Assembly (NCBI GenBank): GCA_008125075.1
Contig: VLTH01000002.1
Location: forward strand, 2,828,924-2,892,923
Source of the DNA: Acetivibrio alkalicellulosi
Lineage (GTDB): Bacteria; Bacillota; Clostridia; Acetivibrionales; Acetivibrionaceae
DNA length: 64,000 bases
Direction: 5' to 3'
Both the position numbers and the translations under genes were made by a program. This document shows, one piece after another, positions 6,551-64,000 of this stretch. Each line of letters starts with the position of its first letter. Positions within the stretch are counted from its first letter, which is position 1. Below the pieces are notes generated by a model that made no database searches, was not told the DNA's origin, and was given only the letters and a program-made list of their open reading frames with translations.

Positions 6551-6588
6551 GTGTGCATGTAACAAATGTGAAGAAAAATATGCACCCC
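6551..6588. repeat. Minimal relic of the MITE family (both ends, no interior)
   Basis: The 38 bases begin GTGTGCATGTAACAAATGTG, continue with AAGAAAAA, and end ATATGCACCCC. The left part matches the left terminal repeat of the 7211-7410 MITE and the last 13 bases match its right terminus, as if the interior had been deleted. It lies in the gap between the cyclase gene and the next gene. Confidence 0.6.
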
Positions 6589-7119: not shown

Positions 7120-7210
7120 GTTATTTTCTGATACAGTCCCATTTCATCTTATAGAAAGTGAAGTGTTAGATTTAAGATGCACCTTTACTAGGATTTTTTG
7201 CACATAGTGT

Positions 7211-7410
7211 GGGTGCATGTAATAAATGTGAAGAAAAACATTCCAGAAACTTAAGTTACGCAGCCTAGTGCCTGTAAATGCTCCTCGGGGTCGAGCAAAA
7301 CTCGCTATCGCTCAAACAATGCTCTCCCTTTCCTCGTCGCATTAACAGGCTCTAAAACTTGCTTCACAATGTTTCTTCCATGTTTTTCTTCACTTAGAAA
7401 ATATGCACCC
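7211..7410. mobile_element. MITE, ISLre2-type ends, with 9 bp target duplication
   Basis: A 200 bp non-coding element. The left end reads GGGTGCATGTAATAAATGTG then AAGAAAAACAT; the inverted right end reads GGGTGCATATTTTCTAAGTG then AAGAAAAACAT, giving an imperfect terminal inverted repeat of about 31 bases. It is flanked by the perfect 9-base duplication ACATAGTGT (7202-7210 and 7411-7419). The interior has further pairing (CCTGTAAATGC with GCATTAACAGG). The terminus matches that of the ISLre2-like element at 63118. The right end supplies the last codons and stop of the minus-strand gene next to it. Confidence 0.93.
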
Positions 7411-9975
7411 ACATAGTGTTTTGCCCGTGATAATGTCGGAAGCTACAAACATATTGCTATTTGAAACATTGTATACCTTTATGACATCCTGTATATCCTG
7501 ACTGTTTGGTAATATATCTTGTAGAATATTTTTTTCATTTTTAAAAAAGTTATCTTTATAGTTTAAGGTGCTCTCATCTTTATATATAGCGGCATAATAT
7601 ATATTTGCTTCAACAAGATCCTGGAAAAAGTGACTTCCAAAAGATAATTCTGGCATATACCCAGCCTCCTTATATGATACTTCACAAATAACTTTTATGT
7701 TGCTTATTTCAGCAAATCTAACTGGCACTCCAAGCTCTGGAGATGTTGTCCCAATTCTTCCAGGCGCAAGAAGCATTATTGATTTACTGCTATCTTTGTA
7801 ATACTGGTTTATTTCACCTATTGCCCTCGCAATATTATGCTTTTTGTTGTAGGGATATTCATAATAACCTTTTGGATCAATATGTATAATTGCATCTAGT
7901 GGCTCGTTATAAGATCCTCCCATTGTGCCACCTGAAAGCTCAAAAAATATGTTTTCTTCTGATACTTGTGGCATTCCTACTTTGCCGTCAGTTCCTATAA
8001 TCTCTAATGGTCTGCATTGCAATATATTTATCATAAACTCTCCGTGCTTAGAAAAATTCACTGTAAATTCAATATCTACAGGATATTTATATTGAATTTG
8101 CAATTCATTTAGTATTTTTCTTAATATATCTATAAGTTCTTTGTTATCAATTAACCCTTTACAACTAGTAAATAGTATTTCTCTTTTTTGTCCCCTGTCA
8201 CGATAAATTGCTTCTGTTTCATAGTCGTGTTCTAAAGTAAGCTTTTTATACCACTCAGGCAGTTTTGGTATAAGTTCATATAAATCCATTGTCATAAAAT
8301 CATTTTTACCCAAATCAAGTACATCCATTTTATGCTGAGAGTACTGATGACTTTCCGAAGACCCTCTTATAGGTGTAAGATGAGGCTTGTCTAAACTAAC
8401 TATTCTTGGATAGTCTCCATCTGTTCTATCAACTGCTCTTGTTCCAAGTCCCATTACCAACCTTATCATCCCTGCTGTAGGATCAATGTCTTTATGCCAT
8501 TTATATGAGTTGTATGAATATCCCACTCCTGCAGCTGACGGCATAAAAACATCATCTAAAAGAGATCCTGAAACCCTTTGCACAAGTATAGCCATCTGCT
8601 CATCACTCTTGCTAAGACCTCGCTGCAATCTATACTCTAGTGCAGCCTCATCCATTGTACTTGCATAAACTTTTTTTACTGCCTTCTCAAAGGATATAAG
8701 CCTATCCTCTAGGCTTCCCACATTAACACAGAAAAAAGATTCATATTTACCTGCAAATGCATTTCCAAAACTATCTTCTAAAAGACTACTAGACCTTACG
8801 ATAATAGGACTTTGCCCAAAATACTCAAGCATCCTTCTAAATTGTTCTCTTATTGTATCTGGGAAACTCCCCTCAAGTATTTTACTCTTTAAGTCTTTAG
8901 CTGCTGTAAAATATCCCTCTTCACTTTTTTGTAATAGTCTTATCTTCCACCATCCATTTTGAACAATATAAGTATAAAAAACATCAGATCCAATATAAAA
9001 AGAGTCATGTTCCTCTATTCTTTCATGTACATCAGGCAAGTTATTTTCTATTATTTTTCTAGCTAAAAGCATTCCCCAAGCTTTCCCACCTATTTTACCC
9101 GAGCCTGTCATTCTCTCCTTAATTAAAATTAAATCATCTGCACTAAAATTTTCAATTAAGAGATTATTGAGCTTATCTTCTTTCCCGGCAAGCCTTTCAC
9201 AGATATCTTTTAAATCCACACTATTTCCTTCACCATTATCAAGTTTCATTTTTACATATAGAAAAAATCTTTCCCAACTGTCAAGATTTTGATCATTGTG
9301 AAGCTTAGTTTTATGAGAAACAAGAGAATAAAACTTACTGACACTTACACTATCAGTTACAGCTTCAAAGCCTTCAGGGTGATTGTTTAAAAACCTGTGA
9401 GGCAAAAACATGTTAGGAGAGTATCTTTGCCATACCTTTAAGGGATGGATATAGGTCTCATTATTCTGTGAATAAACATCAAGAAAAAGCTGGGTAGTTT
9501 CGCGTATTCTTGCTATTGTGTCAAATGAATGCCTATAGCGTATTATGCAAAAAAATGCAACTGTATCAAGCTCAAATAGATAGGGGCAAGTTACTACAAA
9601 AAAATTACCCATCATAAGATCTGCTGACCATGCCGTTTGTAGTTCGGAAAGGCTGTCAAAAACATAAAAAGTCTCCTTACCCTCTCTTTCAATTATTTCA
9701 TGAACCTGAACAGTAAAATTTTCAAATCCTTCTTGGGGATTAAGTTCATATATTTTCAGACCATCCTGTGGCTCTAATATTGGTTTGTGATTTGCAAATC
9801 TTATGTATACAAGTCTCCGCTTATCTTTAATAGCTTGTTTTGCAAAAGACTGTGCAAATAAAAAGTATTCTTCAATGTTTGATATCTGCCATACAACATT
9901 GTCCCCAAGCCTAATATTTTCCAAGGCTTTATCAAGACCTTCCAGTCCTGACTTTATTTTTTCAAAAGCACCCAT
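7390..9975 (-). CDS. PEP-synthase-like ATP-grasp protein with N-terminal KaiC-like region
   Basis: 861 residues, with a GCGAGGA ribosome binding site before the start. Residues about 285-660 form a PEP/pyruvate-binding (PPDK N-terminal, ATP-grasp) domain, with KIGGKAWGMLLARKI and IIVRSSSLLEDSFGNAFAGK. Residues 1-210 resemble a RecA/KaiC-like fold (GLEGLDKALE near the N terminus) but show no Walker A. The phosphohistidine swivelling domain and PEP TIM barrel of true PEP synthase are absent, so it is not a standard PEP synthase. The gene lies 14 bases after the NA37-like gene and is probably co-transcribed with it. Its last six codons (GCIFSK and stop) come from an inserted MITE. Without the insertion the frame would have ended AKNPSKGAS, so the C terminus was rewritten with little loss. 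Confidence 0.8.
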   Translation of the reverse strand: MGAFEKIKSGLEGLDKALENIRLGDNVVWQISNIEEYFLFAQSFAKQAIKDKRRLVYIRFANHKPILEPQDGLKIYELNPQEGFENFTVQVHEIIEREGKETFYVFDSLSELQTAWSADLMMGNFFVVTCPYLFELDTVAFFCIIRYRHSFDTIARIRETTQLFLDVYSQNNETYIHPLKVWQRYSPNMFLPHRFLNNHPEGFEAVTDSVSVSKFYSLVSHKTKLHNDQNLDSWERFFLYVKMKLDNGEGNSVDLKDICERLAGKEDKLNNLLIENFSADDLILIKERMTGSGKIGGKAWGMLLARKIIENNLPDVHERIEEHDSFYIGSDVFYTYIVQNGWWKIRLLQKSEEGYFTAAKDLKSKILEGSFPDTIREQFRRMLEYFGQSPIIVRSSSLLEDSFGNAFAGKYESFFCVNVGSLEDRLISFEKAVKKVYASTMDEAALEYRLQRGLSKSDEQMAILVQRVSGSLLDDVFMPSAAGVGYSYNSYKWHKDIDPTAGMIRLVMGLGTRAVDRTDGDYPRIVSLDKPHLTPIRGSSESHQYSQHKMDVLDLGKNDFMTMDLYELIPKLPEWYKKLTLEHDYETEAIYRDRGQKREILFTSCKGLIDNKELIDILRKILNELQIQYKYPVDIEFTVNFSKHGEFMINILQCRPLEIIGTDGKVGMPQVSEENIFFELSGGTMGGSYNEPLDAIIHIDPKGYYEYPYNKKHNIARAIGEINQYYKDSSKSIMLLAPGRIGTTSPELGVPVRFAEISNIKVICEVSYKEAGYMPELSFGSHFFQDLVEANIYYAAIYKDESTLNYKDNFFKNEKNILQDILPNSQDIQDVIKVYNVSNSNMFVASDIITGKTLCGCIFSK

Positions 9976-18326: not shown

Positions 18327-18528
18327 GGGTGCATTTAATAAAAGTGCTCAAAAATACTCCAGAAACTTAAGTTTTCCAGTTTAGATACTGTAAATTCTCC
18401 TTGGAACTTTGCAAAACCCGCTTCGCGAAAAAAAAGGATGATCTCCTTTTCCTCATGGCATTAACAGGCTCTACCACATGCTTCACAATGTTCTCCCTTG
18501 TTTTTCTTCAGGTTGACTAAATACACCC
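18327..18528. mobile_element. MITE, second full-length copy
   Basis: About 202 bp related throughout to the copy at 7211: left GGGTGCATTTAATAAAAGTG; middle CCAGAAACTTAAGTT and GCATTAACAGGCTCTA; right CTTGTTTTTCTTCA and ending ATACACCC. It is more diverged, and the flanking 9-mers (TCACATAAT and ATATATTAT) match only in part, so it is probably an older insertion. It fills most of the 416-base gap between the S41 gene and the next gene. Confidence 0.85.
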
Positions 18529-25817: not shown

Positions 25818-25857
25818 GGGTGTATGTAATAAATGTGAAGAAAAACATTCCAAAGAC
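25818..25857. repeat. Solo left end of the MITE family
   Basis: GGGTGTATGTAATAAATGTG then AAGAAAAACATTCCAAAGAC. It matches the first 35 or so bases of the MITE at 7211. No right end follows, and the sequence runs directly into the stop of the next gene. It is a truncated or relic copy. Confidence 0.7.
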
Positions 25858-25864
25858 ATAATAG

Positions 25865-27145
25865 TTACTTCTTTATTTTATAAGTGTACAAGTCAGATTT
25901 ATTGAAAAGAGTAAATTCTATCTCAATATGCTCTGGTAGATCCCTAGTAATGAATCTTTCCCCTGTTACAAAATCTATAGGAATATCCTGATAGTTGTTT
26001 TTATCCATAGCATAAAAGTATATTGATAGTGCATTCTTTATTCTAACAGTATTTTCACAAATCCCACTAAGCATATCAACGGTTTGTTTGTAAGGTATCT
26101 CCTCCATATATTTGAATATCCTCCAAAGGCTTTCAACATTACTCTCCTCTACAAGCTTTTCTAACTTATCATAATTTTCATAAGGTACTTTAATTGCTTC
26201 AACCATAGTAAAATAAAACTCGTCTAGTTTTCTTAAATATCTATATAAATCAAAGAAAGGTCTGGCTTTTTCTACTTTTTTAAATTGGTCATGATTAAAA
26301 TTATATTCACTTGCAAATGCTCTTTCAAATGATTTATCCAGCCCACCTAATATGCTATCTTTAAGTCTGGAAACTTCAGATAAATCATAGCTTGAAAAGA
26401 AATCTTGATTGTTGTAAAAATACTCTCCAAGGTTTCTTGTAATAGCTATATAGATAAGAGTTCCTGTGAAGTTATTGCCTTTTATATCAACTGTTTGAGC
26501 AGCGTTATACCAGAGTTCTACATATTTGTCTACCGCCTCTTGATACTTTCCTTCTAATCTATAATACTCAACTTGAAGCATTTCAGTTTTAAATATGACT
26601 AGCATAATTGGCAATTTATCTGGATTATCTACTGTTTGAATCATATCTTCATTAAAGATATGCTGATTAACATATATATCATTTGATTTTATAAGTTCAA
26701 AAATTTCAGCTCTTTTTTCACTAGTTTTATCTAACACTTTAGCTACACTTGAATTATCTGAATCTATTGTTATACCTCGATCAGTATCATCCAAGCTTTT
26801 GTCAAATTGTTCTAGCAATTCATACAAGTTTTGACCTGCTTTAACCTCTTCTTCTGTTGCTATTACATGTCTTAGTTTTGTTTCTGTTAGTTCTTCATTT
26901 GAATAATTAACTATACTAAATGTTATAAACAATAAAAATGCTAAATATGTTAATGAAATAGGTATAATAAATACTATTTTTTTTACATGGTTAATTTTTT
27001 TAAAAACTATAGTTAATAATAAGAATACGGCTGGAATAATAAATAAGTAATATGGTCTTTGTTCAGCTAAAACAAATGCTGCAATAACAATTTTACTACT
27101 TAATAATAAGCTTATTAAAAAAGAAATAAACAGATTAATCCTCAT
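25865..27145 (-). CDS. Membrane-anchored protein of unknown function
   Basis: 426 residues. Three N-terminal hydrophobic segments (about 7-27, 33-47 and 55-77) are followed by a long soluble region (80-426) of mixed helix and acid-rich content without a known motif. The start follows a run of six G. It is monocistronic and has no recognised family. Its soluble part is presumably extracytoplasmic, as an inference from topology. Confidence 0.6.
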   Translation of the reverse strand: MRINLFISFLISLLLSSKIVIAAFVLAEQRPYYLFIIPAVFLLLTIVFKKINHVKKIVFIIPISLTYLAFLLFITFSIVNYSNEELTETKLRHVIATEEEVKAGQNLYELLEQFDKSLDDTDRGITIDSDNSSVAKVLDKTSEKRAEIFELIKSNDIYVNQHIFNEDMIQTVDNPDKLPIMLVIFKTEMLQVEYYRLEGKYQEAVDKYVELWYNAAQTVDIKGNNFTGTLIYIAITRNLGEYFYNNQDFFSSYDLSEVSRLKDSILGGLDKSFERAFASEYNFNHDQFKKVEKARPFFDLYRYLRKLDEFYFTMVEAIKVPYENYDKLEKLVEESNVESLWRIFKYMEEIPYKQTVDMLSGICENTVRIKNALSIYFYAMDKNNYQDIPIDFVTGERFITRDLPEHIEIEFTLFNKSDLYTYKIKK

Positions 27146-37151: not shown

Positions 37152-37340
37152 GGTTGCATGTAATAGATGTGAAGAAAAATATTCTAGGAACTTAAGTTAC
37201 GCAGTCTAGAGCCTGCAAATACTCGTCGGAGTCGAGCAAAACTCGCTAGCGCTTAAACAATGCTCTCCCTTTCTTCGTAGCATTAACACGCTCTACTAAT
37301 GTTCCTTTCATATTTTTACATCCACTTTTCACGGCGTCTA
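37152..37340. mobile_element. MITE, third copy, right end decayed
   Basis: The left end GGTTGCATGTAATAGATGTG then AAGAAAAATATTC. The interior shares CTTAAGTTACGCAGTCTAG, GTCGAGCAAAACTCGCTA and AACAATGCTCTCCC with the 7211 copy. The right terminus (ATATTTTTACATCCACTTTTC) is too altered to place exactly, so the right boundary is approximate. It lies upstream of module 2 blaI. Confidence 0.8.
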
Positions 37341-53865: not shown

Positions 53866-53961
53866 GTTATCCCCTCCATATAAAAAAATAGGATTTCTTT
53901 TATTTTTACGTGTCCTGCTCTAGCTGCTGCTGCAAATAAAAATTTTTTAAAATTTCCCACA

Positions 53962-54150
53962 CTTCCCAAGTAAGAAAAATGGAATGATTTTGATAATCGT
54001 TTGAGTATAGCTTATAGAGAGACCTTAAATATATGTGATTACCCTGGTTCTGTTGTAGTACTTTCAATTAACTCAATTAAAAAACATGTTCAAATAATAA
54101 AAGATAGTAATAAAATTAAAAACAACACTATAATTTTTACAATAAATTAA
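53962..54150 (+). pseudogene. Unassigned gene fragment
   Basis: From about 53972 a frame without a start codon reads EKWNDFDNRLSIAYRETLNI, then CDYPGSVVVLSINSIKKHVQ and stops. Protein-like composition suggests the tail of a lost gene. Family not recognised. Confidence 0.4.
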
Positions 54151-63015: not shown

Positions 63016-63117
63016 CATTCTAGATGAGTTGAAGCAACTAATAAAACTATAAGAATAAATTTTTATAGATATTCACCATCATAGAACCACCTAGCACCAC
63101 AGAACCCCAGTACCAAA

Positions 63118-64000
63118 GGGTGCATTTAATTTATGTGAAGAATAAAAAACCATGTTTAAAAGTTCCATTGAAAATAGACAAAAGAATAGTCTAAGATACC
63201 CATGTGAAATCAAATTAAAGGGGGGTTCTTAGACTATGATTAAAAATATCGATACTATTGTATCAAAAAACATAGGTGAAATGGAATGGGTATTAAAGGA
63301 ATTTGCTAAAGAAGCTGTAAAGCTTGATGATAAAGGTGAGCTTACAATAACTACTTTAGAAAAATTAGCAGGAAAAACAATAAAATCGCTTATTCAGATA
63401 GTGTTATTAATGATGGGTGGATTTTTAAGCAACGTTGTAAGAAGTGAGGTTAATAGAATTTGTTCCTGTGGGAAGAAAATGGGCATATCCAAAAGAGATG
63501 TTACAACTCGCATACTATCTATGTTTGGATATGTTCCTGTAACAAGAGATATGCTGTTTTGCAGAAGGTGCCGGAAAGGACAGGGAGTTTTTGATAAAGA
63601 GCTTGAGATATATGGAGAGCACAGAATAACAAAAGGAATGACAGAAATAATGACATATATGTCTCAATTAGTTCCTTCTTTTGAAAGAGCTACTGAAGCA
63701 ATAAAAAAGCTGTTAAATATTGAAGTTAGCCCTACGCAAGCACAGATAATATCTGAAGAAGTAGGGAAAAGAGTATTTGAAAAAAGAAAAACTAAAGCAG
63801 AATTAGCATATGAAAGACCTGAAGATGCAGCACCACAGGAAGTAGTAAAAATTTAAAAGAGGGACGATTATATATTCTTACAGATGGATCACAGTTAAAT
63901 ACAAGAACAGAAAACAATAAAGGCTCAACATGGAAAGAAATGAAGCTAGGTCTAGTTTTTAAAGACAGTGATGTTATAAAAAGAAAGATGGAAGCCAAAT
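63118..64000 (+). mobile_element. ISLre2-family insertion element, left part
   Basis: Left end GGGTGCATTTAATTTATGTG then AAGAATAAAAAACC, matching the MITE termini. The right end lies outside the window. It encodes a UPF0236/ISLre2-type transposase (63236 onward). Confidence 0.85.
63236..64000 (+). CDS. ISLre2/UPF0236-family transposase (frameshifted, 3' end outside window)
   Basis: The first 206 residues have the zinc-binding CSCGKK and CRRCRKG pairs and EVSPTQAQIISEEVGKRVFE, typical of ISLre2. The frame then meets TAA at 63854-63856, but the minus-1 frame continues LKEGRLYILTDGSQLNTRTE, then NNKGSTWKEMKLGLVFKDSD to the window end, including the catalytic Asp in LTDGS. A run AAAAA TTT at the junction could allow ribosomal slippage, or be a disabling indel. 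The start follows AGGGGGG. Confidence 0.85.

Follow-up and report, generated by a model that had tools for sequence, protein, structure and literature searches.

Insertion sequences of the ISKra4 family generate a 9-bp target duplication. In the part of PMC12524634 that cites d'Alencon et al., nearly precise excision of Tn10-related elements is presented as a deletion whose endpoints lie in short direct repeats, and the inverted repeats are proposed to fold into a hairpin. Bacterial MITEs such as MITEAba12 of Acinetobacter (PMC6382973) are short and non-coding and have inverted ends, target duplications and a related autonomous element; the repeats analyzed here resemble them, the related autonomous element being a putative one. 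They differ in having, beside a class of 200 bp, a second, much shorter class of exactly 37 bp. Among the titles listed by searches of open-licence PMC papers, none dealt with MITEs of the ISKra4 family or with elements of 37 bp. This genome harbors a 200-bp non-coding MITE family, and we consider it reasonably probable that the family is mobilized in trans by an ISKra4 transposase and that the 37-bp forms are stubs left by deletion in place.

The window, by which we mean the whole 64,000-base stretch of DNA analyzed (C2:2828924-2892923; G+C 30.6%), belongs to a genome of 5.31 Mb in three contigs. It contains a full copy of the MITE with the following parts:

7211..7410, plus strand: 200-bp MITE, full copy (inverted ends; genome-wide family)
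7202..7210, no strand: left target duplication ACATAGTGT (from the sequence)
7411..7419, no strand: right target duplication ACATAGTGT (from the sequence)
7211..7241, plus strand: left terminal repeat, GGGTGCAT-N9-GTGAAGAAAAACAT (inverted-repeat comparison of the ends)
7380..7410, minus strand: right terminal repeat (inverted-repeat comparison of the ends)
7242..7379, no strand: non-coding interior, predicted long hairpin (folding z scores; covariation)

The perfect 9-base duplication that the initial annotation had reported around this copy was confirmed, since ACATAGTGT is exact on both flanks of an element of 200 bp with inverted ends. Its inverted arms span 43 bases and are 79% complementary, and folding of the interior gave z scores of -4.3 on the plus strand and -4.6 on the minus strand relative to shuffles. 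An ORF of 861 aa on the minus strand (7390-9975) runs through the target duplication and has its stop codon within the MITE right end, so its last codons appear to have been supplied by the insertion.

A genome-wide search for ends of the GGGTGCAT-N9-GTGAAGAA type, allowing up to two mismatches, found 209, compared to 1 for a control with the pattern reversed. The 200-bp element, used as a query against its own genome, gave at least 49 matching pieces, the best 40 of 287 candidates being scored. These searches, which the initial annotation had suggested, agree with its description of a MITE family: the element is short, non-coding and multicopy, has inverted ends, and occurs genome-wide far above chance. 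Because 62 of 100 listed ends (out of the 209) fell outside the 40 MITE places from the 200-bp search, the DNA around those 62 was added; the sample of 597,756 bases consists of DNA taken around element ends and is not random. In it we searched for duplications flanking a full end that faces any GGGTGCAT-like end, tolerating one mismatch where k was at least 8 and none where it was 6 or 7. End pairs with a duplication numbered 45 at k = 9, and 0, 0, 3, 1, 0 and 0 at k = 6, 7, 8, 10, 11 and 12, respectively. Two of the 45 were ambiguous, overlapping another pair, which left 43 elements with lengths of 37 (n = 17), 39, 45, 46 (n = 2), 55, 91, 119 and 197-202 bp (n = 19). The 19 distinct MITE copies of 197-202 bp in this set had target duplications matching at 8-9 of 9 positions, exact in 16, and those of the 37-bp elements were exact in 11 of 17. 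Duplications of 9 bp, as at the copy at 7211, are consistent genome-wide. With respect to ORFs of at least 100 aa, which cover 72% of this non-random sample, 38 of the 45 pairs were clear, 4 lay inside and 3 overlapped. Among the entries of approximately 200 bp (n = 20, one an ambiguous pair) the median pair was 87% identical and the best pair 99%, and this best value indicates that the MITEs moved fairly recently. A second minor class comprises units of 45-46 bp that consist of right-end sequence and bear exact duplications (C2:767419-767464, C2:1370123-1370168 and C1:941770-941814).

When the flanks of 62 entries (two overlapping another) were compared with fetched DNA for empty sites, no match satisfied the criterion for spanning a junction; one weak match (71%, to L167) crossed the junction of C3:192741 by 15 bases. 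A stretch of 19.5 kb had counterparts in six relatives, with genes mostly 66-81% identical and intergenic sites too distant to align. These comparisons yielded no informative paralogous or orthologous site, and no site was found in both long and stub form.

Four further MITE-derived sequences lie in the window:

18327..18528, plus strand: diverged MITE copy (full length, 76% identical, duplication 5/9)
25818..25868, plus strand: MITE left-end fragment, about 50 bases (comparison with the 7211 copy)
37152..37295, plus strand: MITE copy without right end (first 144 bases match at 88.9%)
6551..6587, plus strand: 37-bp stub made of the left terminal repeat and GCACCC (target duplication not callable)

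The first had been listed as a copy, and it is full length but diverged and without the 9-bp duplication. The third had been drawn as a copy reaching 37340; its left part stands, but no terminal repeat ends it on the right and the duplication there is 1/9. The sequence at 25818, proposed as a relic, is truncated to a left-end fragment. The sequence at 6551 had been taken for another relic and turned out to be a complete 37-bp form, one of 33 such elements; its flanks are a CCCTTGC repeat, in which a 9-bp duplication is not callable (2/9).

What is surprising in this genome is the 37-bp class, many members of which have intact 9-bp duplications. Each stub consists of a 31-bp end followed directly by the terminal six bases of the opposite end. 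The pattern GGGTGCAT-N9-GTGAAGAANAAYATGCACCC, searched genome-wide at up to three mismatches, gave 34 matches compared to 0 in the control, and since one of these is a 46-bp element, 33 stubs of exactly 37 bp remain. A 9-bp flanking duplication (8-9 of 9) was found at 18 of the 33, exact at 11, with 0 or 1 at any other k from 5 to 13; the other 15, including the stub at 6551, fall below a flanking match of 8/9. The idea that solo ends are decayed relics was rejected because units of 37 and 46 bp turned out to be bounded by 9-bp duplications. Viral contigs contained 0 stretches with the exact 37-bp pattern.

In sequence, the stubs intermix with the 200-bp copies. The spacer GTAACAAAT occurs in 9 of 33 stubs and 13 of 39 left ends of 200-mers, and TTAGTGAAT in 7 of 33 and 6 of 39, respectively; by distance, stub ends and left ends showed no separation (permutation p 0.073), and for two stubs the nearest relatives are right ends. 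At position 26 right ends most often have T (24/41), and this base was present in 5 of 33 stubs as opposed to 1 of 39 among the left ends (p 0.087); position 29 is C (5) or T (4) in TTAG-type stubs and C in 7 of 7 TTAG- or TTTG-type left ends; these two mosaic signals point weakly in the same direction. The junction of the stubs lies in an imperfect 8-bp direct repeat at register 37.

In the mechanism we propose, the ISKra4 transposase would act on the MITE ends, and stubs would then arise repeatedly by one and the same deletion in place. Template switching or slippage between AAAAAYAT in the inner terminal repeat and the aligned AAWAATAT near the other end would drop the hairpin interior and leave 31 + 6 bases flanked by the original duplications. 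We favor deletion in place because stubs and 200-bp copies are intermixed in sequence and the stub junction falls in an imperfect direct repeat, and we put it first because there are several stub subfamilies as well as one-off deletion lengths with intact duplications; the duplications at lengths 39, 45, 55, 91 and 119 show that such deletion does happen. The stubs resemble the products of Tn10 nearly precise excision, as the excerpt of PMC12524634 presents it, in that both suggest deletion between short direct repeats within hairpin-capable inverted repeats, and they differ in that deletion is deduced here from a large number of natural copies that share a single length. The junction at a short direct repeat is what is seen in nearly-precise-excision remnants; other registers are predicted as well and are rarely or not seen. 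Direct repeats of at least 5 bp predict products of 57, 65, 80 and 37 bp in 20, 16, 13 and 16 of 25 copies, respectively, but lengths 57 and 80 are absent among the 45 end pairs of the 597,756-base sample and the 65-bp form occurs once genome-wide (duplication 8/9 by eye). Since the first three lengths are predicted about as often as 37 and are absent or rare, slippage alone does not explain the dominance of 37 bp, and microhomology was rejected as a full predictor of size. Either register 37 is favored for some further reason, or copying as units accounts for some of the stubs.

A lesser possibility is that the 37-bp unit is itself mobile, with a full end, GGGTGCAT-N9-GTGAAGAA, plus a bare GGGTGCAT sufficing for the transposase, and was amplified as a lineage of its own. 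One exact length dominates despite several microhomology options; three stubs at different sites are identical over all 37 bases, two with exact duplications and one (C2:758730) with none; and GTGAAGAA is present at just one of the two ends of the insertion sequence described below. A single founder nevertheless fits poorly with stubs that span several 200-mer subfamilies, two of them closest to right ends, and it is hard to picture both ends of a 37-bp duplex paired in one DDE transposase complex.

The distribution among relatives bears on both readings of the stubs. Searched in 148 genomes, its own included, the 200-bp query found matches in 13, and the 37-bp pattern at up to two mismatches was found among these 148 in the own genome (20) and in G011 of another genus (15) only. 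The G011 37-mers have their own spacer sequence, and 6 of the 15 show a flanking match of 8-9/9. Herbivorax sp. ANBcel31 (G002; NZ_JAVDDS010000001.1; Acetivibrionaceae) had no 37-bp pattern at this threshold; instead, three 69-bp elements with exact 9-bp duplications (L255, L256 and L259) were seen in 22 loci examined. By eye, the 69-bp junction lies at ACAAT in the terminal repeat and the register-37 repeat is broken. On the less favored view, one full and one bare 8-bp end would make the 37-bp unit an independently mobile and possibly the shortest known transposable element, with a minimal size class of its own in each lineage, 37 bp for the two genera that have it and 69 bp for Herbivorax, and we would advance this only tentatively. 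In a separate observation, 559 bases at L107:8290-8848 are 96% identical to the Herbivorax genome in a region where genes are mostly 66-81% identical, possibly reflecting recent transfer.

The putative partner of the MITEs is an insertion sequence at the end of the window:

63118..64000, plus strand: left portion of an insertion sequence of the ISKra4 family (extends beyond the window across a 100-N gap)
63109..63117, no strand: left target duplication AGTACCAAA of this insertion sequence (from the sequence)
53874..53977, minus strand: fragment related to the 63118 insertion sequence (86.7% identical)

The initial annotation had called the 63118 element an ISLre2-like insertion sequence and the only autonomous-looking element with the MITE end. 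The element is real, but the autonomy of this copy is doubtful: its reading frame stops at 206 aa, the element runs into the gap, and an intact transposase gene lies outside the window in another copy, L062 (1641 bp; 455-aa gene; duplication AAAAACATC). The other two copies are 99.2-99.7% identical to L062 in their aligned parts, and all three have exact 9-bp duplications. Two of the three near-identical copies are broken by runs of 100 N (at window position 64000 and at C2:1298533-1298632), which look like assembly gaps. Against NCBIfam, the L062 protein scored 300.7 bits for ISKra4 (NF033572; cut-off 205) and 95.6 bits for ISLre2 (NF033529; cut-off 200), which rules out the ISLre2 assignment and leaves a distant relation to that family. 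The genome has six ISKra4 matches, of which just one is above the cut-off, and a search by sequence for solved structural relatives of the transposase returned none. In its transposase, its inverted GGGTGCAT ends and its 9-bp duplication the insertion sequence is ISKra4-like; the MITE differs from it in having no gene and in carrying GTGAAGAA at both ends rather than one.

Compared with five types of MITE end, the insertion sequence agrees at 21-22 of 25 positions on its left side (22 for the 63118 copy) and at only 16-17 of 25 on its right. Followed past the window, the right end of the 63118 element has GGGTGCAT and lacks GTGAAGAA, so the earlier claim of a shared terminal repeat stands for the left end and for only the GGGTGCAT part of the right. 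The proposed trans-mobilization of non-coding derivatives is likewise supported, by the left end and the 9-bp duplication, with the transposase family corrected. From the left-end match, the duplication length, the recency of movement and the fact that the genome has no other intact ISKra4 gene, we infer that the MITEs were likely moved in trans by the ISKra4-family transposase of this genome.

Because the right end agrees so much less well, the true partner could instead be a different element, since lost or not sampled, that carries GTGAAGAA at each end; the likeness of the left end would then reflect nothing more than common descent. The MITE ends are alike on both sides, which would suit such a mover, and G011 has 112 ends of the MITE type and no match to an ISKra4 gene in a genome that is 90% complete. 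We judge this unlikely, in view of the common 9-bp duplication, the close left end, the single intact ISKra4 gene and the near identity of the insertion-sequence copies, which indicates that they are recent. Among 16 relatives, ISKra4 genes above the cut-off were found in G137 and G009, and G137 has copies with 9-bp duplications (L179 and L189). G004, of the same genus, has at least 40 distant ISKra4-like genes (at most 74 bits, under the cut-off) and 3 ends of the MITE type, and another element therefore seems to have expanded there.

Of the 18 stem pairs of the hairpin, 5 have changes on both sides among 23 diverse copies, and 94.9% of cells pair, compared to 34-53% in slid controls. Despite this pairing, the better folding than shuffles and the similar interiors between unrelated ends in G137, it is very improbable that these repeats represent mobile genes for structured RNAs, or terminator-like units, that are retained for their hairpin. 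A long inverted repeat folds in this way even if it has no function as RNA, Rfam returned a single match far under its gathering score (23.8 versus 211 bits), and a search with the interior in a phylum sample of 398 genomes gave 1 match, the own genome. In G137, four interior copies (L281, L282, L284 and L285) adjoin an unrelated TTGTGCTAG-type end (by eye; two were paired by script), and L289 of G111 has the MITE interior with one end of each type, MITE and TTGTGCTAG. This suggests that ends are interchangeable around a kept hairpin core.

Returning to the 37-bp forms, which we favor as stubs of deletion in place, the presence of dozens of elements of this exact length makes testable either the minimal size of a DNA transposon or the frequency and register of in-place hairpin collapse. 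Whichever applies, it is relevant to the way in which MITEs become shorter and to the small inverted-repeat remains that go unannotated. Furthermore, the size class differs among related species as the terminal repeats differ, which provides a natural test.
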